From positions 124,001 to 188,000 of the IMG/VR virus record IMGVR_UViG_3300022843_000001: a DNA stretch of 64,000 nt, one strand, 5' to 3'. Shown here piece by piece: positions 7,093-63,305 of the stretch. The DNA is from a virus. Position numbers and translations under genes: made by a program. Position 1 is the first letter of the stretch. Every line of letters starts with the position of its first letter. The notes beneath the pieces were generated by a model. That model saw nothing but the letters and a program-made list of their open reading frames with translations. It was not told the DNA's origin and ran no database searches.

Positions 7093-7108
7093 AATCTTAA
7101 GTCCTTTG

Positions 7109-7474
7109 TTATAATAGATCAAGCAATTCTTGCTCGGTTGTTGTGGAATCTATATCAATTTGCATTTTGTCGTCATTGTCTCGAATAACTTTTCTATCGG
7201 ATTCTGCTTGTGTTGCGTCTTGGCTCGGTATCTGCTTCATTATGATTGCATCATGTGGTGCAAAGTCCTTCTCTCGTTTTGCTCTGCGTAACTCATGTGC
7301 AACCTCCTTCGCTAAAGGTAAATCAGTTACCACCGCGTCACCTACAATTCTCCACGCACCACGAAAGACCTTATCAGGGACTGACACAACTTCAAGCCAT
7401 GTTGCACCTTCAGGTATTGAGGACTGCTTTGAGCAAATCGCAACGGTGTTATCTTCTTGTTGATATGCGTACAT
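7109..7474 (-). CDS. Putative tail-fibre-associated or assembly protein, unknown
   Basis: 121 residues. The WRIVGDAVVTDLPLAKEVAHE segment and KREKDFAPHDAIIMKQIP are reminiscent of small phage proteins encoded after tail-fibre genes. Highly charged helices and an acidic C-terminus (TTEQELLDLL) suggest a chaperone or adaptor. The start overlaps the stop of the endonuclease VII-like gene (TAATG), so it is translated with the tail-fibre operon. Function is inferred from position only. Confidence 0.6.
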   Translation of the reverse strand: MYAYQQEDNTVAICSKQSSIPEGATWLEVVSVPDKVFRGAWRIVGDAVVTDLPLAKEVAHELRRAKREKDFAPHDAIIMKQIPSQDATQAESDRKVIRDNDDKMQIDIDSTTTEQELLDLL

Positions 7475-13400: not shown

Positions 13401-14272
13401 TAAAATTTCCAAGGCTTATCAGGTGTAGAAGATTTACCAGTATTTGGTATATCCCATACGTCTTCTTCAGGATCAGGTACTTCTACAAAAGTATTACTTT
13501 TACTTGGTATAGGTTTATCCCTGATTTCTTCAGTAAACTCAGCTTCTTCAATATCATCTGTTTCTATTTCTTTACTTACTATTTTAGATTCAATAATTGT
13601 TTTAATAGGTACACCAGCTTGAATACTTTGTTGTTCTTTTATAATTAATTTTTCTGTAGCTTCTCTTAAAGACGCTATAGCAGATTTAGCACCATCCTCA
13701 ACTTGTATACTGATAACATTGTCATCAGAAGGTTTAAGCTCTTTAATTAATGTTTCACCTGCCTTTTGTCTAACGATTTCTGATTTAGCATTACGCATTA
13801 ACTCAGCTTGGTTAGTTATTGATTCGTACAGCAGATGTCTAAAAATTAGTTGTACAGGGGTAGTAGCTACTTTTCGTATTTCACTAACTAAAGCAGTAGC
13901 GTTATATCTAGATGCTTCGCCTGTTATTGCACTTTTAGTTTGGCCTCTGTCAGTTCTAGCTTTAAGTCTTTCTGGAAAAACAAGAATATAAGACTCAGTT
14001 AAACTGTTACCAGATTCAACTAAAGAAAAAAACTTAACAGCACACAAGTACCCTCTTGAAGTGTATTTGCTGTTACTGCTCAGTATATTTAAATGGTCCC
14101 TGTAAACGTCTAAAAATTCTTCACCGTAGTCAGGATTTTGAGCTAGCTTGTTAAGCTCATACACAGTATTCTCATCAATCATGTGTTTTTGTTTAGCAGA
14201 CAGCTGAGACTGTAAAACTTTTAAATCAAGTTTAGCTTGTTTGGATTGTTCTGATGTTACTGTTGTTCCCAT
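13400..14272 (-). CDS. Putative terminase small subunit (N4 gp69-like position)
   Basis: 290 residues, largely helical, with a basic N-terminal half and an acidic proline-containing C-terminal tail (VEVPDPEEDVWDIP). It directly precedes and overlaps the large terminase start, as the presumed small-subunit gene does in N4-like phages. I see no certain helix-turn-helix. The function is inferred from position and size. Confidence 0.55.
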   Translation of the reverse strand: MGTTVTSEQSKQAKLDLKVLQSQLSAKQKHMIDENTVYELNKLAQNPDYGEEFLDVYRDHLNILSSNSKYTSRGYLCAVKFFSLVESGNSLTESYILVFPERLKARTDRGQTKSAITGEASRYNATALVSEIRKVATTPVQLIFRHLLYESITNQAELMRNAKSEIVRQKAGETLIKELKPSDDNVISIQVEDGAKSAIASLREATEKLIIKEQQSIQAGVPIKTIIESKIVSKEIETDDIEEAEFTEEIRDKPIPSKSNTFVEVPDPEEDVWDIPNTGKSSTPDKPWKF

Positions 14273-19735: not shown

Positions 19736-19833
19736 ATAATGACCACCTAGCTCTACGGAAAGGGTTAGGAAATGTTAAGGAGCAGTACAGTACCGTGTAT
19801 ACATTCGTATACATGTCATGTTTGGAGAACATT

Positions 19834-21840
19834 ATGAAAAACTTACAACCAGCAGTGTCAGAAAAAGCAGCAATAGATCACACAAATGACAGCTTGAAAA
19901 CTGCTATGTATTTGATGCTTAGCAACTCTGATTTGGTTACAAAGACAGCATTTTACGCTAATGAAGAGTTATACGATGATTGGACAGCTATGGTACACGA
20001 ATACGTGTTTGATACTTTATTACCGAACAGACTGAAGCATGTAATAGCAGCAGTAACTAGCGTAACAAACAGTTGCGATAAGGTATTGCTGAGCACTTTT
20101 GTAGGCATGTTGAAGTATAAAAACATGGTTGGGCCATTAAAGGTTAAGCAAACTGAGGGACAGCTTAAACGTTTTAATATACTGGTGGCTGAATTAGTTA
20201 CTAGTATACTAATTGACGAAGGCTTGCTTGAAGTACAAGTAGAAAAAGTTACAACAGCATTAGGTGTTAGAACACATAAGTATGTGACGTTTACTAAACA
20301 TAATGTCAAAGATGTGTATAAAGGCATTATGGATAAAGCTGGTGTTGTGCTGCAGAAAGATATTGCTGGGCGTAAGCCTAATAATGCGCAGAAAACTTGT
20401 CTTGCATTGTTATCTAGTCAGGCGTATGAACTTCATACTGCTCTTAGTCAGGCAGTACTGCACAAGTTTTATACACTTAAACCTGATTGGAACAAGACTC
20501 ACGATAAGAATGGTAATGAAATTAAATGGGTTGGTGCTTATAAACGTAAGCATTACAAAGATATGGCAGCGGAAGTAATGGAACTGCAAGATTGCATTTA
20601 CTATATTGCGCATAAGTTTGACAATCGTTTACGTGTCGGTCCTGAGGCAAATAGGCTTGAAGGTATTAATCTTCATGGAAAGTCTTTTGAAACTGGACAG
20701 CATTGTGCTGCAAACTATAAAGATATAAATGATCAGGCTTATAGAATGATTGAGCAGCAGTTGTATTCAGCTAGGCATAACCGTGTGACTGTTCAGCAAG
20801 CAGTAGATAATTTGTCATCTAATGACTATTTACCTGTTACTGAGGACATTATGCTTGCAGCTACTAGCCAGAAGGAAATGGCTAACTTGCACACTGCTAA
20901 GAAAGCATTAAAGTCAATGCAACGACACGCTGAAGGCAAGCCTTGCGGTAATTTATTCGGCTGGGACTTCACGTTCTCAGGTGGCATTATGGCAGGTCTG
21001 TTGTTCAAGAGTCCTGAGTTCTTACAGTCAGGTAATCTTTATGGTGAGGATAAGGTAACTGATGCACATGCTAGGTTTGGTGAGTTATTTGGTCTTAGTG
21101 GTATTGATAGAGATACTGTTAAGGATATGCAGCAACCAGTTATGCATGGTGGTCACATTTCAGGTTTGCTGAAAGTACTAGCAGATCATGGATTTGAGAT
21201 GTCAGAAGCAGAGGTAAAGAGAGGTCTTACAGGTGTATACGGTGAATGTGTTGGTAATGTAAATATCATTGCTGAGTGGGGTCAAGCGTTAGCATGCAGT
21301 GAGTATGCAACAATGACTTGGACTATGCCTGATAACATGATTTCAGCACACAAAGCTTACCAAAGTGGTATTGCTGTTGAGAATTATGTTGCATCAGCTA
21401 CTAGTAAGCGTGGTTATACTCATAATGTACAGCTTAGTAATTTGCCTTATGAGACTACTAATACTGGTAAACCTTTGTATGCTAAGGAGATGACTATTGG
21501 TCATACTAACTATAAAGTTACTACTCATCTGAGAGGATTATTTGCCGATATTCTTCATAGTGTAGATGCTTATGTGTTACGTAGAGTAGTGAAAGCTGTT
21601 ACTGATCAGGGCTATACTATATTGGTTAAGCATGACAACTTTTATATTCAACCAGCAGCTTATCCTACTTTAATTAAAGCAGCTAAGAAGGTGTTTAGAG
21701 AGTTGCTTCATAGTAATTTGCTGCACAATATACTCACTGAAATTAGTGAACGGTCACATAAAGAATCTAATGTGCCAGAAATAGTTTATGGCGAAGCTCA
21801 AGATTTGATTGAAGAAAGCCATAATTTCTTACTACCATAG
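19834..21840 (+). CDS. T7-family single-chain RNA polymerase (N4 RNAPII-like, fused)
   Basis: 668 residues from the ATG at 19834 (GGAG 9 nt upstream). Motifs of T7-type polymerases in order: DNRLRV at D263 (DxxGR-like), motif A GWDFTFSGG at D378, motif B R426-x3-K430 followed by MHGG, motif C KHDNFYIQP at D601. Length equals the sum of the two N4 RNAPII subunits (about 269 and 404 residues), so this looks like one-chain RNAPII. In motif B the residue aligned with T7 Y639 is H438; a second YG (Y469) lies downstream. Expected role: middle transcription from its own promoters, made by the virion polymerase. Confidence 0.85.
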   Translation: MKNLQPAVSEKAAIDHTNDSLKTAMYLMLSNSDLVTKTAFYANEELYDDWTAMVHEYVFDTLLPNRLKHVIAAVTSVTNSCDKVLLSTFVGMLKYKNMVGPLKVKQTEGQLKRFNILVAELVTSILIDEGLLEVQVEKVTTALGVRTHKYVTFTKHNVKDVYKGIMDKAGVVLQKDIAGRKPNNAQKTCLALLSSQAYELHTALSQAVLHKFYTLKPDWNKTHDKNGNEIKWVGAYKRKHYKDMAAEVMELQDCIYYIAHKFDNRLRVGPEANRLEGINLHGKSFETGQHCAANYKDINDQAYRMIEQQLYSARHNRVTVQQAVDNLSSNDYLPVTEDIMLAATSQKEMANLHTAKKALKSMQRHAEGKPCGNLFGWDFTFSGGIMAGLLFKSPEFLQSGNLYGEDKVTDAHARFGELFGLSGIDRDTVKDMQQPVMHGGHISGLLKVLADHGFEMSEAEVKRGLTGVYGECVGNVNIIAEWGQALACSEYATMTWTMPDNMISAHKAYQSGIAVENYVASATSKRGYTHNVQLSNLPYETTNTGKPLYAKEMTIGHTNYKVTTHLRGLFADILHSVDAYVLRRVVKAVTDQGYTILVKHDNFYIQPAAYPTLIKAAKKVFRELLHSNLLHNILTEISERSHKESNVPEIVYGEAQDLIEESHNFLLP

Positions 21841-27930: not shown

Positions 27931-28115
27931 AACCCTGCCAATTTTGTAATTCAACAGATACACAATTAGGAGTTTATAAAAATCGTGTGTTTATTATATG
28001 TATAGGATGTGAAGCAAAAGGACCAACTGTTTATGTAGATGATACAGAAAAACTAGGGGAATCTAAAAAACTAGCTATTAGTAATTTTAACAACCGAGAA
28101 TACAAAAATGATTAG
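27921..28115 (+). CDS. Lar-like restriction alleviation / zinc-ribbon protein
   Basis: 64 residues. CQFCNSTD, then IICIGCEAKGPT and a C-terminal AISNFNNRE match the Lar family layout (two CxxC knuckles, then a W/F-N-x-R end). Lar of Rac prophage weakens EcoKI restriction. Short and zinc-bound, so a specific anti-restriction role is only suggested. Overlaps the RNA ligase gene by 8 nt. Confidence 0.65.
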   Translation: MDIKPCQFCNSTDTQLGVYKNRVFIICIGCEAKGPTVYVDDTEKLGESKKLAISNFNNREYKND

Positions 28116-29097
28116 GTATCCAAGTATTGAACAATTTAGAAGAGTAATTAAAGAAGTAGAAATGACTTTTAAAAATGAAATTCAGCCTACATTAAAATTT
28201 AAAGGTACTGTAAAAGTACATGGTACTAACGCTTCAGTAGTTATTGAACCTAACGGAACTATAACAACACAGTCTAGAAACAACGTAATAACTGTTGAAA
28301 ATGATAATGCTGGTTTTGCTAAATGGATTGAAGAACGAAAAAGCTGGTTTTATGAATACAAAAAACAACTAGAACACCAACTAATAGCTTGGGGAAGTGA
28401 CACTGTAGTTATTTACGGTGAGTTTGCTGGTGGCAATATTCAAAAAAATGTTGCAGTGACAGGTATTGATAAATTCTTTTACGTATTTGGTATTAAAATT
28501 ATTAATGAAAAAGAAAATGAAGATTACTGGTCTTCAGAAATTCCTGAATTTACACGAATGGATAATTATAACTTTGACAGAATTTTTATGGCTAACAAAA
28601 TTTGGAAAAGAAATATACTTATCGATTTTAACAAGCCACAAGAATTGCAAAATCAAATGATTCAGCTAACTGAAGAAATTGAAGCTAACTGCCCTGTAGG
28701 AGCATTATTAGGCTCTACTGAGTGTACTGTTGGTGAAGGAGTAGTGTGGGAACACATTGACTGTAATGGCAACAGATTAGCGTTTAAAGTTAAAGGGAAA
28801 AAACATAGCTCATCTAAAGTTAAAGTTATGGCTGCTGTTGACGTAGAAAAAATGAAATCAATAGATGAATTTGTTGATTATGTATTAACTGAAGCTAGGT
28901 TAGAACAAGGCTTTAAAGAAATATGTGATTGTAATGCAGACAGAAAATACTTAGGTAACTTTATTAAATGGGTTTGTTCTGATGTGTTTAAAGAAGAAAC
29001 TGATACTCTTTTAGCTAGTGGTTTAACAACAAAAGAAGTATCTAGTACTTTAAGCAAAACAATTAGAAATTGGTTTTTCAATAAGGAGTTATTATAA
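28108..29097 (+). CDS. Rnl2-type RNA ligase (T4 gp24.1-like)
   Basis: 329 residues. Nucleotidyltransferase motifs in order: I KVHGTNAS with the adenylated Lys in the KxxG box near residue 37, Ia-like TTQSRNN, III VVIYGEFAGGN, IV GEGVVWE, V FKVKGKKHS. These, and the length (T4 Rnl2: 334), fit Rnl2, which seals 3'-OH/5'-PO4 nicks in duplex RNA. Together with the 3'-phosphatase it likely repairs tRNAs cut by host nucleases. A C-terminal helical domain of about 85 residues is present. Confidence 0.92.
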   Translation: MIRYPSIEQFRRVIKEVEMTFKNEIQPTLKFKGTVKVHGTNASVVIEPNGTITTQSRNNVITVENDNAGFAKWIEERKSWFYEYKKQLEHQLIAWGSDTVVIYGEFAGGNIQKNVAVTGIDKFFYVFGIKIINEKENEDYWSSEIPEFTRMDNYNFDRIFMANKIWKRNILIDFNKPQELQNQMIQLTEEIEANCPVGALLGSTECTVGEGVVWEHIDCNGNRLAFKVKGKKHSSSKVKVMAAVDVEKMKSIDEFVDYVLTEARLEQGFKEICDCNADRKYLGNFIKWVCSDVFKEETDTLLASGLTTKEVSSTLSKTIRNWFFNKELL

Positions 29098-48690: not shown

Positions 48691-51600
48691 TTAGTAAAAA
48701 ACACCCTTAAAAACATTCTCAGGAACTACGCTTCCAACTCCAACAGACTCTAACGGCATGTGTGCAATACCACCGTAACGAGTACTCATGTTAAGAACGT
48801 TAGCACTAAAGATAGTGTTCATGTTTCCTGTTACATACTCTTGTATAACCATTTCAGTAGACAAGTTAACAGGTTTATCTTTAACCATTCTGTAAATAGC
48901 TTTCTGTATACGTAACCAGTAAGAAGGAAACATTAGTATACCTACGTCGCTTAGCTGTTTAACAGCCATAGGCAAGTTTTCTTTGTAATCAGGAAAAGAG
49001 TCAAGTACGTGTATTCGTGCTTGTGAAGGTGTCATTTTCTCATTCTGAATAGCATGTCTGTACAGAGTTTCTTTAGCAAACACATCAATCCTATCCGTTA
49101 CACTAGAACCTAATCTTACAATTTCACTATTTGGGCTAGTAGTAAACTGAGATACATAACCTACAACATCCTCGTCCGTCTTCAATTCCTTAATACGATC
49201 AGTAACCATATCAAGTTGCTGTTGAGCACCTTTACCATAACCAGATTTACCAACTATCCCGCCAATATGACTTAAGAAGTCCTCACCTTGAAAACCAATC
49301 TTATTTAACGTTTTAATAAAATGAGCTACAACATTCTTATTACCTTTTCTGTCTGTAAGCATGTACTCAAGTGCTGTTTGAACATCAGCTTGGAATCCAG
49401 AAGAAGCATCAGAATTTTTAGCTACAAGATCAGAACCTAGAGAGTTAATAAAACCTTTGTTACCTAAGTTACCTACAGAAGTATTATCAATCTGAGTTTT
49501 TAACGCAGTTATTCTATCCTTTATAGCTTGATTGTCTTTAGTACCTACTAACCTAACTTTTAGCTGAATAATTTCATTAGTTATATTTTGATACTTATCA
49601 TAGTCTTTAGATATTTCTAAAAAGTTTTTACCTATAAACAATGGTGAAGCACCTGCAACACTTAAGTAAGCTACGTTAGACATAACATCAATAGCCCATT
49701 TAGCAGGGTTTACAACAACCATACCTATTTTAGAACCAGCTGTAAGGTCTTTTACTATTCTCATTGCCCACTTCATGTGGTGATTATCAATAAGCGATTT
49801 AGAAAATCCACCTATAAGTAAATGAGACATGTCTTTTCTTACTAGCGTAATTTGGTCACTAAATTTTACACCGCTAGTTCCTTTTACATCAGAAATTCTA
49901 CCACCAACTGGTTTGTATCTAGCTCTAATAGACTTGTCTAATGTGTTGTAAGCTTTGCCATCATCTAGCTTAACAAACCAAGGGTTGTCCATGTTATCAG
50001 AATCAACTACTTCTTTTAACTTACCTAGATCTGTATCGTTTGTAGCAAGAAATCTATTTTCAGACATAACTATGTTATTTCGTATTATCTGAGAATCCTT
50101 AATAGCCATGCTGTGTGCTGCACCTCTAACAAGAGTATTTACAAAGTCAGTCTCTATACCTAAAGTTTCTTTTTCAGCAGGACTAAGTACTACTTTAAAT
50201 TTGTTACTTTCAGCTTTAACAACGTTAGAGTAGTTTATTTGACTAGCACTAGTTACGTCTACGTCTGTAGAACTCAACTTTATGTCAGTGTATGCTCCAC
50301 GAAGTTCTGTAGAATCAATAAGCTTTTTGTAAACAATACCTAAATTGTCTTTAGTTGGATTTCTTAATACTTTCCAACCTGTTTCTTCACCTATTTCATA
50401 AGATCTTAAATCTTTAAGTTCTATAGCTTTTGTTTGATGAGATTCTTTGTAGTACTCAGGCAACATACTGTCTCTTAAACCTTCAGTACCTTCTACACCT
50501 AGCATAGTAACTCTATTAGCAATACTATTGTCTTTAACTAGGTTAACTAAATCAGTTTTAGCTAGGAATGACTCAAATTCTTTATTACCTATTTTTTGTA
50601 TGGACTTAAGAGCTAATAACTTTCTAATGTCTACACTAAATGTAGCACTATCTGACATAGCATAAGTAGAAGCTAAGTTGTACAATTTGCCACCTTCTTT
50701 AGTACCTGCCTCAGTTTCTACAGTACGTTCTACGTTACGTTCAATTAAGTGATCTACATCTCTAATAGCAGACTTACTAACTTTTTTTATTTCAGTCTCT
50801 AACCGGGTTACTTCAGCGTCTATTTGACTGCTTGTAGTAATGTCACTAGCAAACACAAAGTAATCATGTAGCGGTAATTGAGTTACAAACCTGCCTATAG
50901 TACTAACCTCATCTTTAGACACACCAGTAAGTGCTTTTTTAAACTCACTTTTTTGAAAAGCAATAGAAGAAATTTGCTGACCTTCCAGTAAAGCTGAATC
51001 AGCTAACAAATCTGCCTTGTTAACTTTATTAGTACCTTCACCAGTAATAGTTTGAACTAAACCTTGAAGTGCTTCAGACCCTTCGTAAATGCCGGATAAT
51101 TTATCAGCAGCATCACTATAAAGAGGAAACAACCTTTTCATGTTTTTGTCTAAAGTGTTTAATAAACGTTTACCTTTTCTTTCAATTTTACTGTTAAGCA
51201 TACTAGATACAGCAGCATTTAAATAACGAAGTGAAGCTTTGTCTTGCATATCAGCAGCACTAGTTGTTTGTCTATTTTTTCCAGAAAACAAAACTGTTTC
51301 AAATTGTTTTTGCATATCTGTAATAAAGTTTATGTCTTCTTCTCTTTTACTTTTTCCTGAAACAATAACACCATTAATAGCAGAAAATAACTTTTCAGCA
51401 TTAGGATCACCAATTTTAAAATCAGCGTAAGTAACATTATTAATAATAGTTATTACTTTATTTTTGACAAATTCTAATACTTTAGCTAATTTATTTTTAG
51501 AAGTGTTATTTAGTGAACTGTACACTTCAGCAGCTACATCAGGTTCTGAATTCATAATAGCAATAAATTCAGATAACATAGTTTCTTGTGAAGAATTTAT

Positions 51601-54600
51601 ATCAATGTAATCCATTCGTTCTTGAGTTTTATTACTAAAAGTTTTTCTTAAAACATGATTCATAGTTTTATCTATGTAAGCCATGTTTAAGTCTAATTGA
51701 GTACTGGTACCACTAGTTTTATTAGCAAATCTTTTAACCCAATCAATTACAACTCCTGCTGTAAAACTGTGAACTATTTCATGTTCAATAAGTTCTATTC
51801 TAGTTTTACGATCAGTAGAATTTTCTGAAATAACTACAGTATCAGTTTCAGTATCAAATTCAAATTCTTCACCTATTCTTACATTAGAACTGTTAGATCC
51901 TTCAAGAAAACTTTTAATAATAGGTGATTCTTCTTTGTACTGCTCTAATATAGTTTCTACGTCTGTAAGTGACTCAGTAGCTGTTTCTGGCTCACTAGCA
52001 GTTGTAGTAGTATTAGGAGCAGCATTATCAAATGCGTCCTTCATAGCTGAATTAGAAGGGTTAGCAGTAGCAGGTTCAGCATTAGGAACAGTAGCAGTCT
52101 CAACTTCTGTATTAGCATCAGCACCAGCAAACTCTCTGGCTTTTATACTGTTACCAATAAGAGCGTTAGTCTTCATGTTCATTCTTTCACTGTTAGCTAT
52201 TTTAGCTTTAGCAGCTACTCTTGCATCAATCTTTGCTTTAAGTTTAGTAAACTTATCTGACTTAGCTAGTGCAGGATCATAAAACTCAATAGAGTTTAGT
52301 ACTTGTTGATGAGTGTCATACTCACCTAAAAGTCTTTTATTTAATCTTACGTAAGCTTCTTCTACAAGGCGTACAGTCTCTGTTGTGCCAATTATCTGAT
52401 CGTGTACGACAATTGCACCGCTATCACCTAGGACTTCGTTTATAGCGTGATACATAAGCCCAGAGTCTATTCCGTGTATAACAGACACATCCATTATAGA
52501 TTGAAACAGTTCTTGTTTACGTGTTAGTACTGTGTGGCCACCTTCTTTAGCTAGGTCACTATCTCCGGTTAAAGGACTAGATACTTCAACAATTTTTGTA
52601 AGAGGCATACCATAAGTTTTAACTTGGTCAATACCAATACCATCTAATACAGCTCCAAAAGGAAGTACTTTCATTCTATGGTTATCTTTAACTTGAGTAG
52701 CTAAATTATAAATGTCAGCACCATCTTTTCTAAAGTCTTTTAGGTAAGCTTCGTAAATTTCTGCCTGCATTATTTCATACAGTTGTTTAGGAACACCTTT
52801 AGTAATAAGAGCAGATTTAATATTAGAGTACAGACCTGATATGTCTTTTAAATCTTTACTGTCAGCATTTTTAAGACTTGGTGAATCCATTAGGTCACCT
52901 AAGTAATCTCTAATGTTTTCGTCAGCTAGGTTGTCTATAATACGTTTAGCTAGGGTGTCAGCCATAGATTTAACAGCTCCTTTAGGTCCCTGTCCGTATA
53001 TAAATACCATAGTAGGATCTTTAGCAAAGGCTCTTTCACCTTCTTTAGTACCACCAAATAACAAGTTTAAAGTAGTTTGTAATAATTCTCTTACGTTGCC
53101 TTGGCCTATGTCTGGTGACATAACTAAACTGTCTTTTTTATTAATAAACCTGCTAGTAGCATCTGACATAAGTGCGTAAACGTCATCTATTTTATTTTCG
53201 TCTAGTACTAAATTTCCATCTGCATCTGTAATAATACCTATGCTTTCCATAAACGTTTCTACATTGGCGTTAGTTCCTAATGCTTGTTGAAATGTTAATG
53301 TACCACCCTGTGCTGTAGCGTCAGCTGAATCCATAAGCTCAGTTTGTAAAGTGTCACCAGTATTATCTCTAATATCTTGAACACCTTTTAAAGTTACTAA
53401 CAATGCTGCGTAGTCTACGCCTTGAAATCTTTCAGGTAGGTTACTTAAAGCTACTATTTTACGTTGCAGAGTTTTTGCATTTTCGTAACTTTTAAAGTCT
53501 TGTAAAGCAGCATCTAGATTAGCATTGCCACCTTCTACAATTTCTTTATAAGTCAGTTCTTTATCATCTAGTGTTTCTTTAATGCTGTACACAAGACGGT
53601 TAAAATCAAAAGACTTTACTTTAACTGACTGAGTACCACTAGTAAGCATGTGTCTGCTTTGTTTAGATGCATGAGCGTTTAACACACTGTTATCGTAGTA
53701 AAGTCTTATGTTTCTACCACCTTTCATTATCATGTGCAGTTCTTCAGGATTACCTTCAGAATTAACAAGCTGGTTATAAGTTTCTATAATATCGTCTAAA
53801 GGTACTGTTTTAGATAAGTTTTGACCACTAACACTTTCTTGCCTATCAACAGAGTGATCATCAGAAGTTTTAATTCCAAATAAAGACTTAATCATTAAAG
53901 GTTTATTTTTAAACTTGTCAGTTAAAAGTTTTGTAGCTGACTCACCTGTTTTGTCAGTTTCTTCTTTAATAAGTGCAAATAAATCATGTACTGTGTTATT
54001 TACGTAAAGAGGATTATCAAATAATTTCTGTCTAGCACTTTGTGTACTAGGAGATTGAACATTACCATCAGGATCACTTTGAGCTACATCAACTGAACCG
54101 TCCTGTTTACCTGTGTAAGGCATAGTAATATTAGATGGCTGTGTCACATGTCTTACAACAGATAACGTGTCTACTATGGTACCTAGTTCGGTACCGCTTA
54201 AGTCAGCTGCAGTTCTATTAAGAAAATGAGATGACTCCTGAGACAAAGTATCAGTAAGTTTACCGGAAGAACTAACTTTGTATTTAGAAATGCCTAGTTT
54301 ACTTGTATTTAAAGAAACACTTTTAGCATTTGTTGTTGTAATTTTCTTTGACTCAAAAGTTTGTGTTATAGCTTCACTGTCAGTGTAATCACGAATAGTA
54401 GTTACATCATCATGAAAATTTACATAGCCTTTTTCTTCAAGTAGCTCTAGTGCTGCTATACCTTGAGTGTAATAAAGTTGCTCAATTTCTGCTGCAGTCT
54501 TAGGACTTTCTTCCATAGACTTGTATCTAGCTTGGTTTTTGTACATCCATTTACGACCAATACTAGCAGCTAGCCTAGACAATGGTAGTACTGGAAGTAT

Positions 54601-55002
54601 TCCATCTACAGACAATTGACTCATTTGTACGTCATTATTACGTGCTTTGTCAGACTCACCTTTAACTGCTTCCATAACTTCATGAAGTGCTATAGCTTTT
54701 GAAATACTGTCTTGATCTACATTATCGTTGTCTATACCAATAATATCTTCTTTAAAAGTATCAGCTTTTTGACCAGAATTTAATATTCTTGTAAGAGCAT
54801 TCTCTATTTTTAAAAGAGTAGGTTTAGATTCATCTTTACCCGGAAGTCCTTCAACACTATTAGTATTTACAAGTCTGTGAACATCTTCAGGTGTAATATT
54901 CCATACATTAAAACGCATGTTTTTTTCTGTATTAGGATCTATTTCTACACCATTAAATTCTTGAATGTATTTTAAATATAGTTCTGGTGAAGGACAGGAC
55001 AT
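48691..55002 (-). CDS. N4-type virion RNA polymerase (vRNAP)
   Basis: 2103 residues. Motifs are spaced nearly as in N4 vRNAP: G429/R430 (DxxGR-like MKGGR), motif A MDSADATAQGG (D558 or D561), motif B R657-x3-K661 followed by Y669-G670 (IYGQG), motif C VVHDQIIG at D868; the N4 numbers for the minimal polymerase are about R424, D559, K670, Y678 and D951. After a Pro/Ala/Thr linker (about 955-1010) comes a domain with HEIVH at 1074-1078. In N4 the protein is about 3500 residues with the polymerase in its middle; here the polymerase is at the very N-terminus. Packaged in virions and ejected with DNA to read early genes. Confidence 0.88.
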   Translation of the reverse strand: MSCPSPELYLKYIQEFNGVEIDPNTEKNMRFNVWNITPEDVHRLVNTNSVEGLPGKDESKPTLLKIENALTRILNSGQKADTFKEDIIGIDNDNVDQDSISKAIALHEVMEAVKGESDKARNNDVQMSQLSVDGILPVLPLSRLAASIGRKWMYKNQARYKSMEESPKTAAEIEQLYYTQGIAALELLEEKGYVNFHDDVTTIRDYTDSEAITQTFESKKITTTNAKSVSLNTSKLGISKYKVSSSGKLTDTLSQESSHFLNRTAADLSGTELGTIVDTLSVVRHVTQPSNITMPYTGKQDGSVDVAQSDPDGNVQSPSTQSARQKLFDNPLYVNNTVHDLFALIKEETDKTGESATKLLTDKFKNKPLMIKSLFGIKTSDDHSVDRQESVSGQNLSKTVPLDDIIETYNQLVNSEGNPEELHMIMKGGRNIRLYYDNSVLNAHASKQSRHMLTSGTQSVKVKSFDFNRLVYSIKETLDDKELTYKEIVEGGNANLDAALQDFKSYENAKTLQRKIVALSNLPERFQGVDYAALLVTLKGVQDIRDNTGDTLQTELMDSADATAQGGTLTFQQALGTNANVETFMESIGIITDADGNLVLDENKIDDVYALMSDATSRFINKKDSLVMSPDIGQGNVRELLQTTLNLLFGGTKEGERAFAKDPTMVFIYGQGPKGAVKSMADTLAKRIIDNLADENIRDYLGDLMDSPSLKNADSKDLKDISGLYSNIKSALITKGVPKQLYEIMQAEIYEAYLKDFRKDGADIYNLATQVKDNHRMKVLPFGAVLDGIGIDQVKTYGMPLTKIVEVSSPLTGDSDLAKEGGHTVLTRKQELFQSIMDVSVIHGIDSGLMYHAINEVLGDSGAIVVHDQIIGTTETVRLVEEAYVRLNKRLLGEYDTHQQVLNSIEFYDPALAKSDKFTKLKAKIDARVAAKAKIANSERMNMKTNALIGNSIKAREFAGADANTEVETATVPNAEPATANPSNSAMKDAFDNAAPNTTTTASEPETATESLTDVETILEQYKEESPIIKSFLEGSNSSNVRIGEEFEFDTETDTVVISENSTDRKTRIELIEHEIVHSFTAGVVIDWVKRFANKTSGTSTQLDLNMAYIDKTMNHVLRKTFSNKTQERMDYIDINSSQETMLSEFIAIMNSEPDVAAEVYSSLNNTSKNKLAKVLEFVKNKVITIINNVTYADFKIGDPNAEKLFSAINGVIVSGKSKREEDINFITDMQKQFETVLFSGKNRQTTSAADMQDKASLRYLNAAVSSMLNSKIERKGKRLLNTLDKNMKRLFPLYSDAADKLSGIYEGSEALQGLVQTITGEGTNKVNKADLLADSALLEGQQISSIAFQKSEFKKALTGVSKDEVSTIGRFVTQLPLHDYFVFASDITTSSQIDAEVTRLETEIKKVSKSAIRDVDHLIERNVERTVETEAGTKEGGKLYNLASTYAMSDSATFSVDIRKLLALKSIQKIGNKEFESFLAKTDLVNLVKDNSIANRVTMLGVEGTEGLRDSMLPEYYKESHQTKAIELKDLRSYEIGEETGWKVLRNPTKDNLGIVYKKLIDSTELRGAYTDIKLSSTDVDVTSASQINYSNVVKAESNKFKVVLSPAEKETLGIETDFVNTLVRGAAHSMAIKDSQIIRNNIVMSENRFLATNDTDLGKLKEVVDSDNMDNPWFVKLDDGKAYNTLDKSIRARYKPVGGRISDVKGTSGVKFSDQITLVRKDMSHLLIGGFSKSLIDNHHMKWAMRIVKDLTAGSKIGMVVVNPAKWAIDVMSNVAYLSVAGASPLFIGKNFLEISKDYDKYQNITNEIIQLKVRLVGTKDNQAIKDRITALKTQIDNTSVGNLGNKGFINSLGSDLVAKNSDASSGFQADVQTALEYMLTDRKGNKNVVAHFIKTLNKIGFQGEDFLSHIGGIVGKSGYGKGAQQQLDMVTDRIKELKTDEDVVGYVSQFTTSPNSEIVRLGSSVTDRIDVFAKETLYRHAIQNEKMTPSQARIHVLDSFPDYKENLPMAVKQLSDVGILMFPSYWLRIQKAIYRMVKDKPVNLSTEMVIQEYVTGNMNTIFSANVLNMSTRYGGIAHMPLESVGVGSVVPENVFKGVFY

Positions 55003-58000
55003 TAAATTTTACACCTTGGATTTAGTTTAGTATAAAGAGCTTCAGCTTTTTTCTTGTCAGAAATAACTTGTGAAGGTTCATTATCAAATGATTCTGTCAT
55101 AACTACCTCTGTTTGTACATCAGGAAAAGCTTGTTCAAATGCACTAAGTATTTCAGGGTACTTATCTAAAGAAGTAAAATTTCTTAGTAAGTTTTTAACT
55201 TCAGCAATATTAGTATAACCAGCTTCTTTAAGTTTTGTAATTATTTTAGGTAACGTAGGAGTAATTGTAGTAGAAACAATTGCTTGTTTAGAAGGACTAT
55301 CTTCAACAGAAGCAATTATACTATCAAATGAACTTAGTTGTTTATTTATAGTGTCACGTTTCTTTTGTACTTCTGGTGTTACTTCAACAGTTTTTATTTC
55401 TTCAACAGCAGCTTCCTGTTTTGTAGAAGGAGTAGGTTTAGGACTAGGAGCAGCAGGTCTTTTAGGACCTACAACATTTTCTTTCTTTTCTGGTCCAACA
55501 ACTAATTCTTTAGCAGCAGTAGCAGTATCTGTAACTGTTTTAGCAACTGAGTTGTAAGCATTTTCTAACTGTTTATCAAATTTAGCCATACCTTCTTCAG
55601 TTTCAAGATTAGGCATATCAGGCATATTAGGTAAGTCAGGTAAAAATTCCTTAACTTTTTTTGTAAAATCTTTAGAACTTTCTGAGTCTAAAAGACTTAT
55701 CAATTCTTTTGTTGATTCAGCATTTTTAAAATACTCAACTAAACCTTTAGATTTAATATTTTTAGACAACTCAGCTATTTTAGCTTTAGCTTCTGTTCTA
55801 ACAGGTTTACGTATTTTATTTGATTCTAGTTTTAACTTGTTAGTAAGTACACCTAGACTAACTTTGTTTTTGCCTTTTTTAACTGAATCAAGTTCTTTGT
55901 ATTTATCTAGGGCAGCCTCAACAATTTCTAAAGAAGGTAAATCTGCTACTTTGCCATTTATTGTATCTGAAACAAGTTTAAATACAGAGTCTGCTCCATT
56001 TTCTGAAAGAGCTGGACCTTTAGCAATATCTTTTAGCTCTGGCTTAATATTGTCTATAGTTGTTAAAGTATCGTTACTTTGACCTATATTTTTTAAAGCT
56101 TGTTTTTTATTAGCAAGAGTTTTCTGTAATTTCTTGGCTAGGTCCGGGTGTTTTTTATCAATAACAGATATTACTTTTGTAAGATCGTTTATTTCCATAT
56201 CTTTAACAGCAGCTAAAACAGTATTAGAAGACTTAATTCCGTTTCTAAGACCTAACTCTATAACACCTCTAGCAGTACTAGATTCTAGATTTTTAACAAT
56301 TTCTACACTTGCTGTACCAAGTGCAGTAACAGTTTTAACTAAGTTTTCTACAGGAACATTTTTTAGAAGTTTTTTAGCTTTTTCAGTACTTTTGTTTACA
56401 ACATTAGTACCTACTTTGCTTACAACTCTTCCTACACTAGTTGCCATTAACTCTGTTTTTACAAGAGCTTGATCACTTCTAAATTGACTAATTAACTTAG
56501 TTTTTATAGAGTTAAATTGTTTTGGATCAGCAGCAGCTTCAGTAGTTATGTTCCCATTAGTTTGTATTTTTATGGTTTCTACACCTACTACGTCATCAGC
56601 TAGTAAGTCATCAATAGTTTTAGCATTTAAAACAGTGTCAATATTTTTTTCTTTGCCTGCTATTTCTTTATCTGCTATAGCTGTTCTTGCTGTTTCAGAT
56701 TCAGACAATACTGCACGATCTGTTTCAGACAATAGTTCAAAACTTGCTTTAGTAAGTGCATCTTGACTTATTTCTTTAACTTTTTTACCACCTCTTACAG
56801 CAACACCTGCAGTTCCTACAACAGTGTCTAAAGCTGCACCAGCAACAACTCCCGGAGCAACAGTAGCACCTTTAACACCACCGCCTACCATAGCACCTAC
56901 TAAAGCAGAGTAGTTGGCTTCATCTATATTACCTTCTTCATTAAGTTCATCTAAAGCAGACCTAATAGAAAAGTCATCCATCTTAGCTTGTAGTATTGAA
57001 TGCCAAGTTTGTAAATATTCTAGTGTTGCTTCTAATCCGCCAACAGCAGACACTTTTACAGCAGCTTTTAGTACTCTTTTAGCAACTTCTACACTGTATT
57101 TTTTAGGTATAGGAGACAATGCTTTTGAAATGTCTTTTGCATATTGTTTAGTAGCGTTTTTAGCAACTGTAACACCTGCTATAGATGGCAAAGCACTCAT
57201 AAATATAGCTCTATCAAACATCATAAGTGCTAAAGCAGCAGGAGCATTAACTAATTTGTGCATAACTGAAGACGCTTCACCATTTTCTTTAATGTAAGCT
57301 TCTTCATTTTGTTGTAATACAGCAGCAGTTGATAAACTTACTTGACTAGCTTTTTTACCAACAGACTTAGTAGCAGCTAGTGCTTTTTGTAATACGTTTA
57401 ATTTTACACCTGCATCTTTAGCAGCTACTGCATCAGTAACAGCATCTGATATATCACCTATTGCATTAGCACCACGAAAAAGCTTTTTACCAAGCATAGG
57501 TAAACCACCAATACCAGCAGTACCAAGAGTACCAGCAATGCCTGACGCTATTGTTCCAGTTAAACTGTCTACAGCTAGTTCTGGAAGTACTTTTGCAGTT
57601 GTACTTATAGCGTCTATTACATTACCTGCTGCGTCTAAATACTCACCTTCTCTTAAACTTATTCTAGCGTTAGCTAAACTGTTTATGCCTGAAGATGCTG
57701 CTTCATTAAGCTCTTGCCTTACCGTGGCTCTAACGTTACTTCTAACGTCAGCTTCTTCCATTAGATTAGGGTTAGATTCTCCTGAAGCAATATTTTTTAT
57801 GTTGTTAAATTCTCTATCAACAGCAGCAGTACCTAATGAGTACAAGTCATTAGCAAAACTAGTACTATTTGCAAGACCACCATTAAATCTGTCTATGTTG
57901 TTAGCTTGTTCTTCAGACACAGGAGTAACTTTAGGTTCAGGTGTAAGCTTTTGTTGCTTACTTGCTATTTTGTCTTTTAAAGAATCAATTTTCATGTCCA

Positions 58001-58061
58001 ATAAAGAAGACGAGTAGTCTACCTGATAAGCATTTCCAGCATTTCTAAATATTTCAGACAT
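55002..58061 (-). CDS. Large virion protein, possible detached N-terminal part of vRNAP
   Basis: 1019 residues. N-terminal 130 residues helical and charged; residues about 150-430 are Ala/Gly/Val-rich with possible membrane-active segments (TIASGIAGTLGTAGIGGLPMLG, APAALALMMFDRAIFMSALPSIAG, GAMVGGGVKGATVAPGVVAG); the rest is Lys/Glu coiled coil with a Pro-rich linker. The stop TAA overlaps the vRNAP start ATG. Length matches the N4 vRNAP N-terminal domain of about 1000 residues, which lies before the polymerase domain, so the gene pair may be a natural split. It probably enters the cell with the DNA. Confidence 0.6.
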   Translation of the reverse strand: MSEIFRNAGNAYQVDYSSSLLDMKIDSLKDKIASKQQKLTPEPKVTPVSEEQANNIDRFNGGLANSTSFANDLYSLGTAAVDREFNNIKNIASGESNPNLMEEADVRSNVRATVRQELNEAASSGINSLANARISLREGEYLDAAGNVIDAISTTAKVLPELAVDSLTGTIASGIAGTLGTAGIGGLPMLGKKLFRGANAIGDISDAVTDAVAAKDAGVKLNVLQKALAATKSVGKKASQVSLSTAAVLQQNEEAYIKENGEASSVMHKLVNAPAALALMMFDRAIFMSALPSIAGVTVAKNATKQYAKDISKALSPIPKKYSVEVAKRVLKAAVKVSAVGGLEATLEYLQTWHSILQAKMDDFSIRSALDELNEEGNIDEANYSALVGAMVGGGVKGATVAPGVVAGAALDTVVGTAGVAVRGGKKVKEISQDALTKASFELLSETDRAVLSESETARTAIADKEIAGKEKNIDTVLNAKTIDDLLADDVVGVETIKIQTNGNITTEAAADPKQFNSIKTKLISQFRSDQALVKTELMATSVGRVVSKVGTNVVNKSTEKAKKLLKNVPVENLVKTVTALGTASVEIVKNLESSTARGVIELGLRNGIKSSNTVLAAVKDMEINDLTKVISVIDKKHPDLAKKLQKTLANKKQALKNIGQSNDTLTTIDNIKPELKDIAKGPALSENGADSVFKLVSDTINGKVADLPSLEIVEAALDKYKELDSVKKGKNKVSLGVLTNKLKLESNKIRKPVRTEAKAKIAELSKNIKSKGLVEYFKNAESTKELISLLDSESSKDFTKKVKEFLPDLPNMPDMPNLETEEGMAKFDKQLENAYNSVAKTVTDTATAAKELVVGPEKKENVVGPKRPAAPSPKPTPSTKQEAAVEEIKTVEVTPEVQKKRDTINKQLSSFDSIIASVEDSPSKQAIVSTTITPTLPKIITKLKEAGYTNIAEVKNLLRNFTSLDKYPEILSAFEQAFPDVQTEVVMTESFDNEPSQVISDKKKAEALYTKLNPRCKI

Positions 58062-58067
58062 AGTTAG

Positions 58068-60074
58068 TTACTTACCTTGTTCTTCTAATAAAAGTTTCAA
58101 GTATTCTGCTTGTTGTTTTTCAGCTCCTGATTTAGGTTTAAAATCTTTTAGTTTTTGATCACCTGTTCTAAGAGCTTCTAATAACTGTTTAATTTTATCT
58201 TCATCAACTTTACTTTTTAAATCTCGAAGTTTTTGGAGTTTTACATTGCTTGCAGTTTTTTCAGCTTTTTCTTGAGCTTGTTCAAAATTAAAATTTTGTA
58301 GTCTAAAATCAGTACCATTAGGGTTAGTTCTTTCAGGTCGATCTCCAGCACTGTAGTTAAAAATAGAAGTATCTTTATACTTAGGATTTTTTGCGTCTAC
58401 TTCACTTAAACCTTTTTGAGCTGCAGCTTTTTCTGCTTCAGTACTATTAGGGTCTAATGCTATAGCTATAAAACCTCTTTTATCAGCAGCAACTTTTTGA
58501 GATTTAACTTTTGCTCTAGCCTCTAATTCTTTAGCTTTTGTAGTTATTTCTTTAGTTTTAAGTTCAGGTGTGTACGTATTACCGGGACCAGAAAGTATTC
58601 TATTTTCAGCAGGTGTAATATCTCTTTCTTTTGTGCTAATAGGAGCTTCTACAGGTTCTTCAACATCATCACTAGTATCTATTTCATCTTCAGAAATTAT
58701 AGGCTTAAGCTTAATTTTAGGCTTAGTTTTAGGTTTATTTCCACCTAGTTTAAAGTCTCTACTAACTCCTGTTTGTTCTTCAATAAACTTTTGAGCTTGT
58801 TTTTGTCTTTCTTCAGAAGTAGTAGCTTGCTGTATAGAATTTTTTAATATTTTGTTAATAGAGTCATCGTACTGAGAAATTAAACTATTATATAGAGACT
58901 GTTGTTGTTGAAATTTTTGATCATTACTTTCACTACCACCAATTTTTCTACTGCTAGAAGCTTCTTGGTTTTGTTGAGCACCTAGTGCAATAGCAGCCAT
59001 AGTATCATCGTTAGACATCATATCTGATATGTCTTTGCTAAACGTACCATCACCATTTATTAATTTTAAAGCTCTCATAGCTCTAATAGTGGCTGCTGGT
59101 CCAACTTTAGATTGAGACTGACTAGCAGCAACTATAGTTTGTAAATCATCTATAGACATATCAGGAGAATTTAAAGGAAATAAACCAAAAAATGTTTCAG
59201 GAGTAAGTGCTTCACTGATCCATTTTATAGCACCTTTACTTTGAGGAACATTTAATGTTTCTGAAATATCTTTAAAAGCATCAGCATTTTCTTTTTGACT
59301 TATAGAACCAGTTTTAAATGCGTTAGTTCCAATATTAGTAGTATTACTATTTCCTGAGTTGCTAAATATTTTGCCAGCAAAATTTAATCTATTTTCAGCA
59401 TTTTTACTTAATCTTTCTTGACTTTTAACATCTAACACACTGTAATTTTCAGTAGCTGTTTGTTGCATTTGTGCTATTTCTGTTTCACTTAGACCAGCTT
59501 CTCTTGCTAAAGCAGCTACATCTGATTTTATTTTAGCAGGGTCTTGATACAGTCTAGGGTTATCAATCATATTTTGGATAAACCCATCCATAAGATCATC
59601 TTTTCTTTTATAACCATCTACTTGATTTAGATTTATAGAAGTATTTCTTCCACCGTCACTAATAGTTCTTGTACCAGAAGTTTGTGTTTGGTAACCCGGA
59701 GAATTAAATATAGCTTGTTTTGTGCCTTGTTCCATCTCAAAAGAAGGCTGCATATCTTTAGCTTGTTGAATTAAATTGCTCATAGCTAAATTTTTATCTA
59801 TACCTCTTTGTTTTTCTAAATCAAAAATACGTTGTTCTTCAACTACAGCTCTTTGACCTTCGTTTTCACGAAAATTTTGTTGTCTTTCAAAATTGGCTTG
59901 TTGTTGCATAACAGCATTTTGCTCAAGCTGTGCATTTCTAGCTTCTTGCATTTGTGCATTTATACTAGCAAGACCTTTTTGAGAACTCTCAATAGAACGT
60001 GCAGCGTTAGCAAAAGCTTGGTTAGAGCCACTAAAGTTAGGATTTATTCTAGATCTAAAAAGTTCACCAGCCAT
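58068..60074 (-). CDS. Internal virion/ejection protein, helical
   Basis: 668 residues, Gln/Lys/Asn-rich. N-terminal coiled coil (EARNAQLEQNAVMQQQANFER), a mid helical domain (LSETEIAQMQQTATENYSV) and a long charged tail rich in Lys. Typical of phage ejection proteins next to vRNAP. Six nt upstream of the 1019-residue gene. No family named. Confidence 0.55.
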   Translation of the reverse strand: MAGELFRSRINPNFSGSNQAFANAARSIESSQKGLASINAQMQEARNAQLEQNAVMQQQANFERQQNFRENEGQRAVVEEQRIFDLEKQRGIDKNLAMSNLIQQAKDMQPSFEMEQGTKQAIFNSPGYQTQTSGTRTISDGGRNTSINLNQVDGYKRKDDLMDGFIQNMIDNPRLYQDPAKIKSDVAALAREAGLSETEIAQMQQTATENYSVLDVKSQERLSKNAENRLNFAGKIFSNSGNSNTTNIGTNAFKTGSISQKENADAFKDISETLNVPQSKGAIKWISEALTPETFFGLFPLNSPDMSIDDLQTIVAASQSQSKVGPAATIRAMRALKLINGDGTFSKDISDMMSNDDTMAAIALGAQQNQEASSSRKIGGSESNDQKFQQQQSLYNSLISQYDDSINKILKNSIQQATTSEERQKQAQKFIEEQTGVSRDFKLGGNKPKTKPKIKLKPIISEDEIDTSDDVEEPVEAPISTKERDITPAENRILSGPGNTYTPELKTKEITTKAKELEARAKVKSQKVAADKRGFIAIALDPNSTEAEKAAAQKGLSEVDAKNPKYKDTSIFNYSAGDRPERTNPNGTDFRLQNFNFEQAQEKAEKTASNVKLQKLRDLKSKVDEDKIKQLLEALRTGDQKLKDFKPKSGAEKQQAEYLKLLLEEQGK

Positions 60075-60081: not shown

Positions 60082-60546
60082 TTACCCTATTGCACTACCA
60101 TCTACATTAGCTGCTTTAGCTCTTGCCATTCGGTCTATATATTCTTGACTACCAGCTTCCACACTATTTAATGCTAAACCATTACGAGTTCTTTCCATAA
60201 GATCTGCATTATAAGAAGTTGCATTATTAGCAAGACTTCTATTCATACCAGCTAGCTCAATACCAAACTGTTTTTTTCCTTGCTTACGCATTTGGTGAGC
60301 ATTATACATACCATATAGGCTACCTAAACCTTGAGCAGCTAACCCAAAGTTTTGAAATCCATTTAAAGATTCTGGTGCTTTTGGGTAATTTTGATCACCC
60401 ATTAAAACACCATTACCTGCATTCATTCTGTAGTCTTGTGGTTTATAACTAAAATCGTCATAGGAAGCTGCTAAACTAAATTCTTTAGCAGGGTCGTATA
60501 TTTGTGTTGTTGTAGGAATTTTGAAATTACTGTAAGTTTCACCCAT
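60082..60546 (-). CDS. Small virion protein, ejection-type
   Basis: 154 residues. Segments GLAAQGLGSLYGMYNAHQMRKQGKK and LANNATSYNADLMERT resemble small internal virion proteins near ejection-protein genes in podoviruses (T7 gp14-like position). Separated from its neighbours by a few bases. Function inferred from position. Confidence 0.5.
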   Translation of the reverse strand: MGETYSNFKIPTTTQIYDPAKEFSLAASYDDFSYKPQDYRMNAGNGVLMGDQNYPKAPESLNGFQNFGLAAQGLGSLYGMYNAHQMRKQGKKQFGIELAGMNRSLANNATSYNADLMERTRNGLALNSVEAGSQEYIDRMARAKAANVDGSAIG

Positions 60547-60563: not shown

Positions 60564-63305
60564 TTAAACTACACCTAAAGTTAAGGCGTTTTTATGATAG
60601 TTGCCCACTACTGTACCATAATCATACATGCTAGAATAGTTGTATTGTATTGGTCCAGCCATAAACCTATATGTGTCAGGACTATTAAGAAAAGCTAGGT
60701 AGGTTGGGTCTAATCCATTTTCTTGTGCTTCTATTAATCTAGCTAGTTCTTGTGACCTAATATCAAATTGATTATTTATTTCTAGCATCTCTGCTTGAAG
60801 CTCTAGTATATCTGCATTTATATCAGCTACTATCATATTACTAAACTGTGTGACGCTTTGTGTAATAACAGCAGGATCACTCATACCTGTTGAACCTGAA
60901 CCAGTTTGGCTAGTTAAGTAAGCAGCACCAGCAGCAACAACTACTTTTAAAAATTCACTATCTATACTAGATATTATAGCAATTGCTATAGAAATAATAA
61001 CATAATTAGCTAATGCAACCTGAAAAAAAGCAGCTAAAGATAGTTTTGTAGGGTCAAAAGTTATCAGAGTGTAAACTATTAGTACTATTTCTAGTAAATC
61101 TGCAAACGCTGAAGTTTCATACCAAGCCACTTCAGTTATCTGTACAGAATAAAAATTCATCCTTAAAGCTAGGGTGTACAACTGTAGTTGTTCAACTGGA
61201 GTTAAACTATCAATAGAAAAATGAGACAACAGTATAGAAAAGTTATCATCCCCTAGTTTACTAAGGCTCATGTTTTCTTGCCCATTACCTAAAATAAACT
61301 CTATACCAGACATGTTTGTTAATACAATTGTAGAACAAGAAGTAGTAGACACCTGTTTTCTCATAGTAAGAGTGTTTACGTTAGTTACAGTATGGCTGTA
61401 AGTACCAATTGGACCTGAATCAAATATGGTAGTAGAAGCATTTTGTGTAGACCATACTACAGCTCGTTTTACATTTTGTTCTAAAAACGTAGCATAATAC
61501 CCTTGGTTGTCTACTGTTGTATTAAAATCAACAGCTTCTGTAATTACTAATGTATAAAACATCTCATAAAGAATTTTAGAAACTACTGTTGCTGTATCAG
61601 TAGGGTTTACAGCGAAGGATAAAAATCCTTCTGATATACCAGCAATATTAGGGTTAGCTTCTATTTGTTGTATTATGTCGTTAAACTCTAAGTCTAAAGT
61701 ACCTAATAGCCCTACTATACCATCATAGTTTTCTTGTCCTACACTAACTACACTGGCAGAAACTGTGTTAGACCTAAGTATACCAATAGGCATAAACTCT
61801 AAGTTACTTAAACTACTGCTTACCATTTTAACATCAGGGTAAGTATTACTACTTATGTCATACACCCAATATTTCCATTCAGCAATTTCGTCAATATAGT
61901 AAGTAACAATTACATAAGAAATAATTCTATAAGCAGGTCTAGTAATCACACTAGTCAAAGTTTCTGTTAAAGGAGATGGCATATTAGTGTTATCTGTGTC
62001 TACAGGGTTAGCAACACTATAAGTAATAGTAGTTGATATGCTGTGTTTTCCTTCAGCTAAAGCGGTAGCTTCAAAACTGTCTTGTGTAGAGATACTTTCT
62101 ATACTTACAACCATAGTAACAGAGGAACTTAACAAGTTTACTGTTTCCGGGGTTATAGTAAAACCTAAACCTGTACCACTAGAAGAAATTTGGTTTATGG
62201 TAGTTCCTGCAGAAGCATCACCACCAGAACTTGTCACTGTAAAAGTTATTACATTTCCGTCTACATCTACACTATCTACTGTTAACACATCATCATTGTC
62301 CAAAGTTATTGTGTCTAATGCACTGTAGAAATTAGTACTGTCGCTTCCAGAACTAGAGTACGAACCATTACTGCCAGAATCATCGTAGTTTGCCTCTGTT
62401 TGATCTTCTAACAAGGTATATTCATAAGGTAATGAGTTTGCTTCAGTACTAATAGTAAAGTCTGTGTACGATGTACCAGCTAGCAATACTACAGTATCAA
62501 CTGAGGTAAAATGGGTACCGTTTGTAGCTGTTCCTGTGTAACTTAAATTAACTGTGACAGTTTTGTTAGCAGGTATAAGTCTATCGACACTAACTGTGTA
62601 CATTAGTGTGTTATCTCCTTGAACTACTTCTGAATAACCAGATAAATAAAACGTAGCAGTTTCTCTTAGTCTCTGTACTGTTAATTGGTAGTTATTAGCT
62701 CCTGCATTGTACGTAACAGCAGATAAAAAATAGCTATCGAAAGTACCGTACTCGTCACTAAAAGTTAATGTATTAAGATGGGGAAGATAACTATAAACAT
62801 TTTGTAAATAGTGTTTAAAATAAACTTCTTTTGTAGGGTACTTTTGTACTGCACTAGTAATATTAACTGTGTAACCAGTTATAGAAAACAAAGCATTAAT
62901 AACAGCAGATTGGTCTATAGTATTTTTACGTACATTTGTTGTAGGTAAAGCATAAGGATACTCACCTTCTTCTGCGTAATTGTAGTAACCGTCTATTTTT
63001 CCTTGAGCAACTTTAGTGTACTTATTAAACGGAGATATTAATGCAATAGCAGAATTTTTTGTGTACTCAAGTGCTATTTTAACTAACGCATCTTCTTCTA
63101 GATCTGTAGTTGAAGGATAAACTTTCTGTGAAACATGTTGTACTTGTACTACGGTCTCATCTTCGATACCAAATATACCTACTACAAATTCCAGTAAAGG
63201 CATAACAATATCATCCCATACTGTTTCTACAGCCTCTACTACTCCTTCAACAACATCTTCTACTATGTCTATTATATCTTCAATAATTTCTACAACAGCA
63301 CCCAT
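60564..63305 (-). CDS. Large structural protein with Calx-beta-like domain
   Basis: 913 residues. An amphipathic acidic N-terminus (EIIEDIIDIVEDVVEGVVE), a beta-rich region with a Calx-beta-like pattern at about 240-300 (VSVDRLIPANKTVTVNLSY, GTHFTSVDTVVLLAG), a membrane-like stretch near 770-805 (LAAFFQVALANYVIISIAI), and a helical end. Probably part of the tail or an internal virion structure. No N4 counterpart is assigned. Confidence 0.6.
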   Translation of the reverse strand: MGAVVEIIEDIIDIVEDVVEGVVEAVETVWDDIVMPLLEFVVGIFGIEDETVVQVQHVSQKVYPSTTDLEEDALVKIALEYTKNSAIALISPFNKYTKVAQGKIDGYYNYAEEGEYPYALPTTNVRKNTIDQSAVINALFSITGYTVNITSAVQKYPTKEVYFKHYLQNVYSYLPHLNTLTFSDEYGTFDSYFLSAVTYNAGANNYQLTVQRLRETATFYLSGYSEVVQGDNTLMYTVSVDRLIPANKTVTVNLSYTGTATNGTHFTSVDTVVLLAGTSYTDFTISTEANSLPYEYTLLEDQTEANYDDSGSNGSYSSSGSDSTNFYSALDTITLDNDDVLTVDSVDVDGNVITFTVTSSGGDASAGTTINQISSSGTGLGFTITPETVNLLSSSVTMVVSIESISTQDSFEATALAEGKHSISTTITYSVANPVDTDNTNMPSPLTETLTSVITRPAYRIISYVIVTYYIDEIAEWKYWVYDISSNTYPDVKMVSSSLSNLEFMPIGILRSNTVSASVVSVGQENYDGIVGLLGTLDLEFNDIIQQIEANPNIAGISEGFLSFAVNPTDTATVVSKILYEMFYTLVITEAVDFNTTVDNQGYYATFLEQNVKRAVVWSTQNASTTIFDSGPIGTYSHTVTNVNTLTMRKQVSTTSCSTIVLTNMSGIEFILGNGQENMSLSKLGDDNFSILLSHFSIDSLTPVEQLQLYTLALRMNFYSVQITEVAWYETSAFADLLEIVLIVYTLITFDPTKLSLAAFFQVALANYVIISIAIAIISSIDSEFLKVVVAAGAAYLTSQTGSGSTGMSDPAVITQSVTQFSNMIVADINADILELQAEMLEINNQFDIRSQELARLIEAQENGLDPTYLAFLNSPDTYRFMAGPIQYNYSSMYDYGTVVGNYHKNALTLGVV

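Follow-up and report, generated by a model that had tools for sequence, protein, structure and literature searches.

The question raised by this locus is whether the giant virion RNA polymerase (vRNAP) of an N4-type phage can be encoded, and ejected, as separate chains. The window (a 64,000-nucleotide stretch, positions 124,001-188,000 of IMG/VR record IMGVR_UViG_3300022843_000001) carries on its minus strand an N4-type ejection operon consisting of gp53, gp52, gp51, a 1019-residue protein (55002-58061) and a 2103-residue polymerase (48691-55002). The 1019-residue ORF ends exactly at the start of the 2103-residue ORF, the two sharing a single base (55002) in the sequence TAATG; this junction, first noted in a sequence-only reading of the window, was confirmed.

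The gp53 homologue (tail plug; 913 residues, 60564-63305) was assigned by tblastn to the gp53-position genes of Schitoviridae and by PHROG 2220, and the gp52 homologue (154 residues, no cysteine, 60082-60546) by a weak BLAST match to N4 gp52 and by PHROG 2646. The ejection protein at the gp51 position (668 residues, 58068-60074) was assigned by its place in the operon, its size and the absence of cysteine; its profile similarity to gp51 of phages with a fused vRNAP was marginal. In N4, gp51 forms the periplasmic tunnel. The N4 counterparts comprise 644 (gp51), 150 (gp52) and 885 residues (gp53) and lie ahead of the 3500-residue gp50. PHROG matches to portal (1.6e-181), TMP-like (1e-55) and MCP (2e-81) proteins were obtained just beyond the end of the window, so that the Schitoviridae structural-module order of portal, TMP-like, MCP, gp53, gp52, gp51 and vRNAP was found here, with gp51 placed by position and size.

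The 2103-residue protein (PHROG 2206, virion RNA polymerase) consists of an RNAP domain (approximately residues 1-960) and a C-terminal domain (CTD). Alignment of its family with fused vRNAPs using hhalign gave a probability of 100 and P ~1e-43 (105-2066 against 1083-3411), the match running from the RNAP domain through the C-terminus of the fused proteins; the leading domain of about 1000 residues found in N4 is missing, as the sequence-only reading had stated. The same reading had placed the polymerase motifs from about residue 430 onwards, numbered almost as in the isolated N4 mini-vRNAP, and this numbering held: R430, D561, K661, Y669 and D868 correspond to R424, D559, K670, Y678 and D951. 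The last four aligned with N4 full-length positions 1556, 1667, 1675 and 1948, and R430 aligned three residues off R424. The segment HEIVH (residues 1074-1078, 51769-51783, minus strand) mapped onto N4 2228-2232, equivalent to the HExxH reported in the N4 C1 domain (PMC12633501), so that a large HExxH-bearing CTD homologous to that of N4 is present. A model of residues 1-1000 was calculated with AlphaFold using 13 relatives (pLDDT 81.4, pTM 0.80), and in a fold search the N4 mini-vRNAP structures were its best PDB matches (E 2e-12, TM ~0.47), whereas the polymerase sequence profile found no chain in the PDB. Pfam was uninformative for both the 1019-residue and the 2103-residue proteins. The catalytic residues and the predicted fold identify the 2103-residue protein as an N4-type single-subunit RNAP core.

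For the 1019-residue protein, a profile of 20 family members was compared with an N-terminal domain (NTD) profile of 34 fused vRNAPs, giving a match with a probability of 95.1, P 3.2e-8 and a score of 84.5 that spans columns 237-401 against 280-432, in order; the best score among 29 shuffles and one reversal of the NTD profile was 20.8. An earlier profile of eight sequences had given 89.8 and P 1.8e-6. A weak second match was located near both N-termini (23-46 against 22-46), and when the full-length fused vRNAP profile was searched with the family the best place was the NTD. The main match comprises about 150 columns, among them a Gly-rich/E-x3-E-x2-Q segment that may be a module common to ejection proteins in general. 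The N4 NTD is helical and lipid-binding and is joined to the RNAP by a low-complexity linker of about 100 residues at 907-1006 (PMC12633501); the break between the two window proteins falls in the region of this linker. An AlphaFold model of the 1019-residue protein from six sequences was all-helical, at low confidence (pLDDT 49.5). The profile match supports the proposal of the sequence-only reading that the N-terminal ejection (membrane) domain of the vRNAP is here encoded as its own gene, between gp51 and the RNAP.

The same NTD|RNAP gene pair was shared by 20 sampled rows, several pairs being only 20-30% identical in the N-terminal protein. It was present in the Alteromonas phages vB_AmeP_PT11-V19 (1000 + 2082 residues) and vB_AmeP-R22Y (1008 + 2083 residues), in the IMG/VR loci L019, L020, L022, L024, L025, L140, L141, L145, L146, L147, L152, L153, L154, L156, L157 and L163 (L152, L156 and L157 being near-copies of one another) and in L148. 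In an unrooted tree the vRNAPs of the split loci formed one strongly supported group (100/100). The vRNAP was fused in the 14 annotated Schitoviridae compared, from N4 to Alteromonas A5 (about 3000-3800 residues; 3022-3760), with the gene order gp52, gp51, single vRNAP, and no extra gene of about 1000 residues was found next to the full-length vRNAP in any of them. A scan of genome contigs revealed no further relatives.

The second departure of the split proteins from the N4 type concerns cysteine. The absence of cysteine from N4-type vRNAPs is already known (PMC2784036, PMC3715699, PMC3915230) and has been explained as avoidance of disulfides during transit (PMC3715699, PMC3915230). Among 69 distinct closed full-length fused vRNAP ORFs of about 3500 residues each, 63 contained no cysteine, three (L044, L075 and L106) had cysteines only close to a start called too far upstream, and three had a real internal cysteine (L042 at 1350, L091 at 3871 and L121 at 2388). 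Each window protein contains exactly one: Cys1017 of 1019, two residues before the C-terminus of the upstream chain (codon TGT, 55011-55013), and Cys3 of 2103 in the downstream chain (codon TGT, 54994-54996), both on the minus strand, with cysteine-free interiors. At the cysteine content of the other window proteins (1.0%), about 21 and about 10 cysteines would be expected in the 2103-residue and 1019-residue chains, respectively. The window vRNAP thus departs in two features from the N4-type definition of a single cysteine-free chain (NTD, RNAP and CTD in about 2800-3800 residues), the NTD being separate.

This arrangement was found at all 25 distinct junctions (26 rows): the upstream piece has a cysteine 0-5 residues from its C-terminus and the downstream piece has one at residues 3-8. 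The split pieces hold no other cysteine, middle pieces carrying one per end, if an over-called start in L019 is set aside (the GTG-initiated call contains two cysteines; a start at the ATG five codons further in leaves one). As background, among 173 other ORFs of the same loci 5.2% had a cysteine within their last six residues, and 6.4% had one at residues 2-8. Both TGT and TGC are used as the junction codons and the intergenic gap varies from -4 to +16 nt, which argues that selection acts on the cysteine residue. A cause at the nucleotide level, such as a start signal or coupling, was ruled out by this variation and by L148, described below. Neither the lone cysteine at each broken end nor the breaks at other domain borders had been noticed in the sequence-only reading.

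Independent breaks carry the same mark, among them those at the RNAP|CTD border. The vRNAP of Alteromonas phage vB_AmaP_AD45-P1 is encoded as 2495 residues (sole cysteine 2493) and 1409 residues (sole cysteine 4), and that of an AD45 relative, 57% identical in the CTD piece, as 2802 residues (the sole cysteine being the last residue) and 1394 residues (sole cysteine 4). For AD45-P1 to P4 (L014, 32624-44400), GenBank notes a potential frameshift at the break in the vRNAP; the arrangement looks like a true division into two genes, complete with a cysteine pair. Locus L066, where the breaks flank an inserted helicase module, has three ORFs, of 2344 residues (Cys 2343), 970 residues (Cys 3 and 970) and 1271 residues (Cys 3). 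The 970-residue ORF (L066, 12439-15351) combines an HExxH segment with an SF1/Dda-like helicase (PHROG 325, 8e-42; Pfam AAA_19 and AAA_30; Walker A at 350) and has no internal cysteine; from its sequence and its place inside the vRNAP operon, its product is a candidate virion-ejected helicase.

The first L148 locus contained the CTD gene only, with Cys6; it was predicted, before the sequence was read, that an RNAP piece located elsewhere would have a cysteine at its C-terminus. The RNAP piece proved to be 1003 residues long with cysteines at 3 and 1000 only. L148 is thus composed of three genes, the NTD piece (cysteine two residues from the end), the RNAP piece and, after ~6.5 kb of other genes, the CTD gene, with the cysteine pair kept at both junctions despite this distance. 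In L167 (5654-10958), genes of 751, 595 and 413 residues lie between the RNAP and CTD genes of a three-part vRNAP and gave no PHROG match. In the tree L148 was nested in the window clade beside L145, in which the RNAP and CTD are fused, and AD45, L030 and L066 formed a separate clade; the RNAP|CTD break of L148 is therefore a later one, and independent of that of AD45.

The placement of the lone cysteines strongly suggests an inter-chain disulfide between the pieces. Since the chains lack cysteine elsewhere and every cut brings one to each of the two new ends, the likeliest partner of each end cysteine is the other. We consider it probable that the window phage has a two-chain N4-type vRNAP in which the end cysteines form an inter-chain disulfide that restores one ejected thread and can be reduced once inside the host cytoplasm. 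This bond would link the cysteine at the upstream chain's C-terminus to the one at the downstream chain's N-terminus. It has to form late, because the host cytoplasm, where virions are assembled, is reducing; it would arise in the released virion or in the oxidizing periplasm. No phage-encoded thiol oxidase was identified, and a thioredoxin search of three split records was negative. According to the N4 model, the stored vRNAP is a row of loosely connected beads, and its ejection takes it along a narrow channel (PMC12633501); the bonded chains would likewise constitute one continuous beads-on-a-string thread that passes through the tail and ejectosome, the bond surviving the periplasm. Reduction in the cytoplasm would then free the polymerase from the membrane-bound NTD. 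We infer both the order of these events and the functional value of the release. It is likely, if somewhat less so, that the group as a whole builds its ejected giant enzyme from separate chains whose ends are joined by disulfides. Each joint would act as a reversible post-translational splice, workable at any domain border, tolerant of gene separation and able to accept new cargo (such as the helicase); it would hold during ejection and open in the reducing cytoplasm to release the polymerase.

How a 3500-residue enzyme passes through a tail of ~35 Å, and whether it needs to be one chain, are open questions for N4 (PMC12633501). In the split group the cysteine-free rule is kept everywhere except at the cuts, where a cysteine stands on both sides, which suggests that what is constrained is the thread's covalent continuity, and that the joint is opened by redox. 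If this is true, it represents a natural design by which a protein cargo of several parts is delivered along a narrow channel and taken apart on arrival.

The strongest competing explanation, although an improbable one, accepts a real split and selection on the terminal cysteines and gives these cysteines another role: chains of one type might form disulfide-linked homodimers, for example, or the cysteines might jointly bind a metal or anchor the chains to the membrane or to a different ejection protein. Several vRNAP copies are present per N4 virion (PMC12633501), so that pairing of like with like is conceivable on the sequence evidence. Against these roles, the cysteines occur only at the broken ends, on both sides and at each independent break, and never at the outer chain ends. 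A pair of cysteines alone is also few for a metal site. The gp51 and gp52 proteins of the split genomes offer no cysteine partner, being cysteine-free except for gp51 of L147 (near an over-long called start) and the gp52-position ORF of L153. The latter (L153, 4713-5177; 154 residues) has two cysteines, at residues 3 and 10; gp52-position proteins elsewhere are cysteine-free.

Considerably less probable is plain loss of the NTD by the polymerase, with an unrelated extra ejection protein, the 1019-residue one, occupying that position by chance. The similarity to the NTD is indeed remote: single-sequence tblastn of the 1019-residue protein in phages gave nothing at E 0.01, and profiles were required. 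The family profile, however, matched the NTD only and in order, with no match to the gp51 families; the summed length of the two window proteins (1019 + 2103 = 3122 residues) is that of a vRNAP, and the cysteines are paired at the join. The sequence-only reading would also have lost ground to an equivalent separate gene beside a full-length vRNAP, and no relative examined has both.

A sequencing frameshift, mis-called genes, stop read-through or a programmed frameshift yielding one long protein is very improbable, even though GenBank flags the AD45 break as described above and a 2023 survey ascribed it to gene calling or read-through (PMC10654107), since the split recurs in independent isolates and assemblies, the genes have proper starts at gaps of -4 to +16 nt, the L148 CTD gene lies ~6.5 kb downstream, and the apparent frameshift splits have no cysteine pair. 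For the window itself, another assembly (a 65,148-bp IMG/VR contig) contains the split region at 100% identity; this, together with the recurrence of the gene pair in the 20 sampled rows, shows that the window record does not owe the split to faulty assembly. Shigella phage pSb-1 served as a control: like the split phages its vRNAP is called as several ORFs (three), but these are separated by overlapping frame jumps in sequence 56-70% identical to N4 and contain no cysteine, which is consistent with sequencing frameshifts. The broken vRNAPs of L033, L040, L047 and L058 were without cysteine pairs as far as checked, L040 being an interrupted copy of the intact L043. L055, a candidate for a cysteine-ended split (DCCQV), was rejected: its tail is read in a shifted frame, beyond which the gene continues in a different one, so that the CC arises by chance.

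Compared with N4 gp50 (PMC12633501; PDB entries 2po4 and 9pnq), the window vRNAP shares the place after gp51, the RNAP catalytic residues and fold, a CTD with HExxH, a homologous NTD and a cysteine-free interior; it differs in being divided into two chains, each of which has one cysteine at its broken end, whereas gp50 is a single 3500-residue chain without cysteine. V19 and R22Y have the same split and cysteines as the window phage; in the part of the R22Y paper covered here a vRNAP of 2083 residues is reported, the missing NTD is not remarked on and the cysteines are not noted (PMC11705849). In AD45-P1 the vRNAP likewise occupies two ORFs, each with a lone cysteine where the chain is broken, but the break lies between the RNAP and the CTD and is annotated as a potential frameshift. 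The 2023 survey joined the separated AD45 and pSb-1 ORFs and dropped proteins under 2500 residues (PMC10654107), and surveys with this cutoff would miss the split group. No report of cysteine-capped split vRNAPs was found in the open-licence papers searched.

Several further features of the window record were observed. A 681-residue protein (19795-21840) matched phage RNA polymerase families (PHROG 2051 and 414) and is probably the second phage RNAP, and a protein with an RNA ligase domain (Pfam PF09414) is encoded at 28108-29097. The 198,785-base record contains two large terminases, one T4-like at window positions 1905-3527 and a second at 11790-13412. The 65,148-bp contig, assembled from this same phage, begins at window position 7739, so that it does not include window positions 1-7738 or the first terminase. 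Near-repeats of a tail-fibre-like region occur at the join, so the 198,785-base record may be chimeric.
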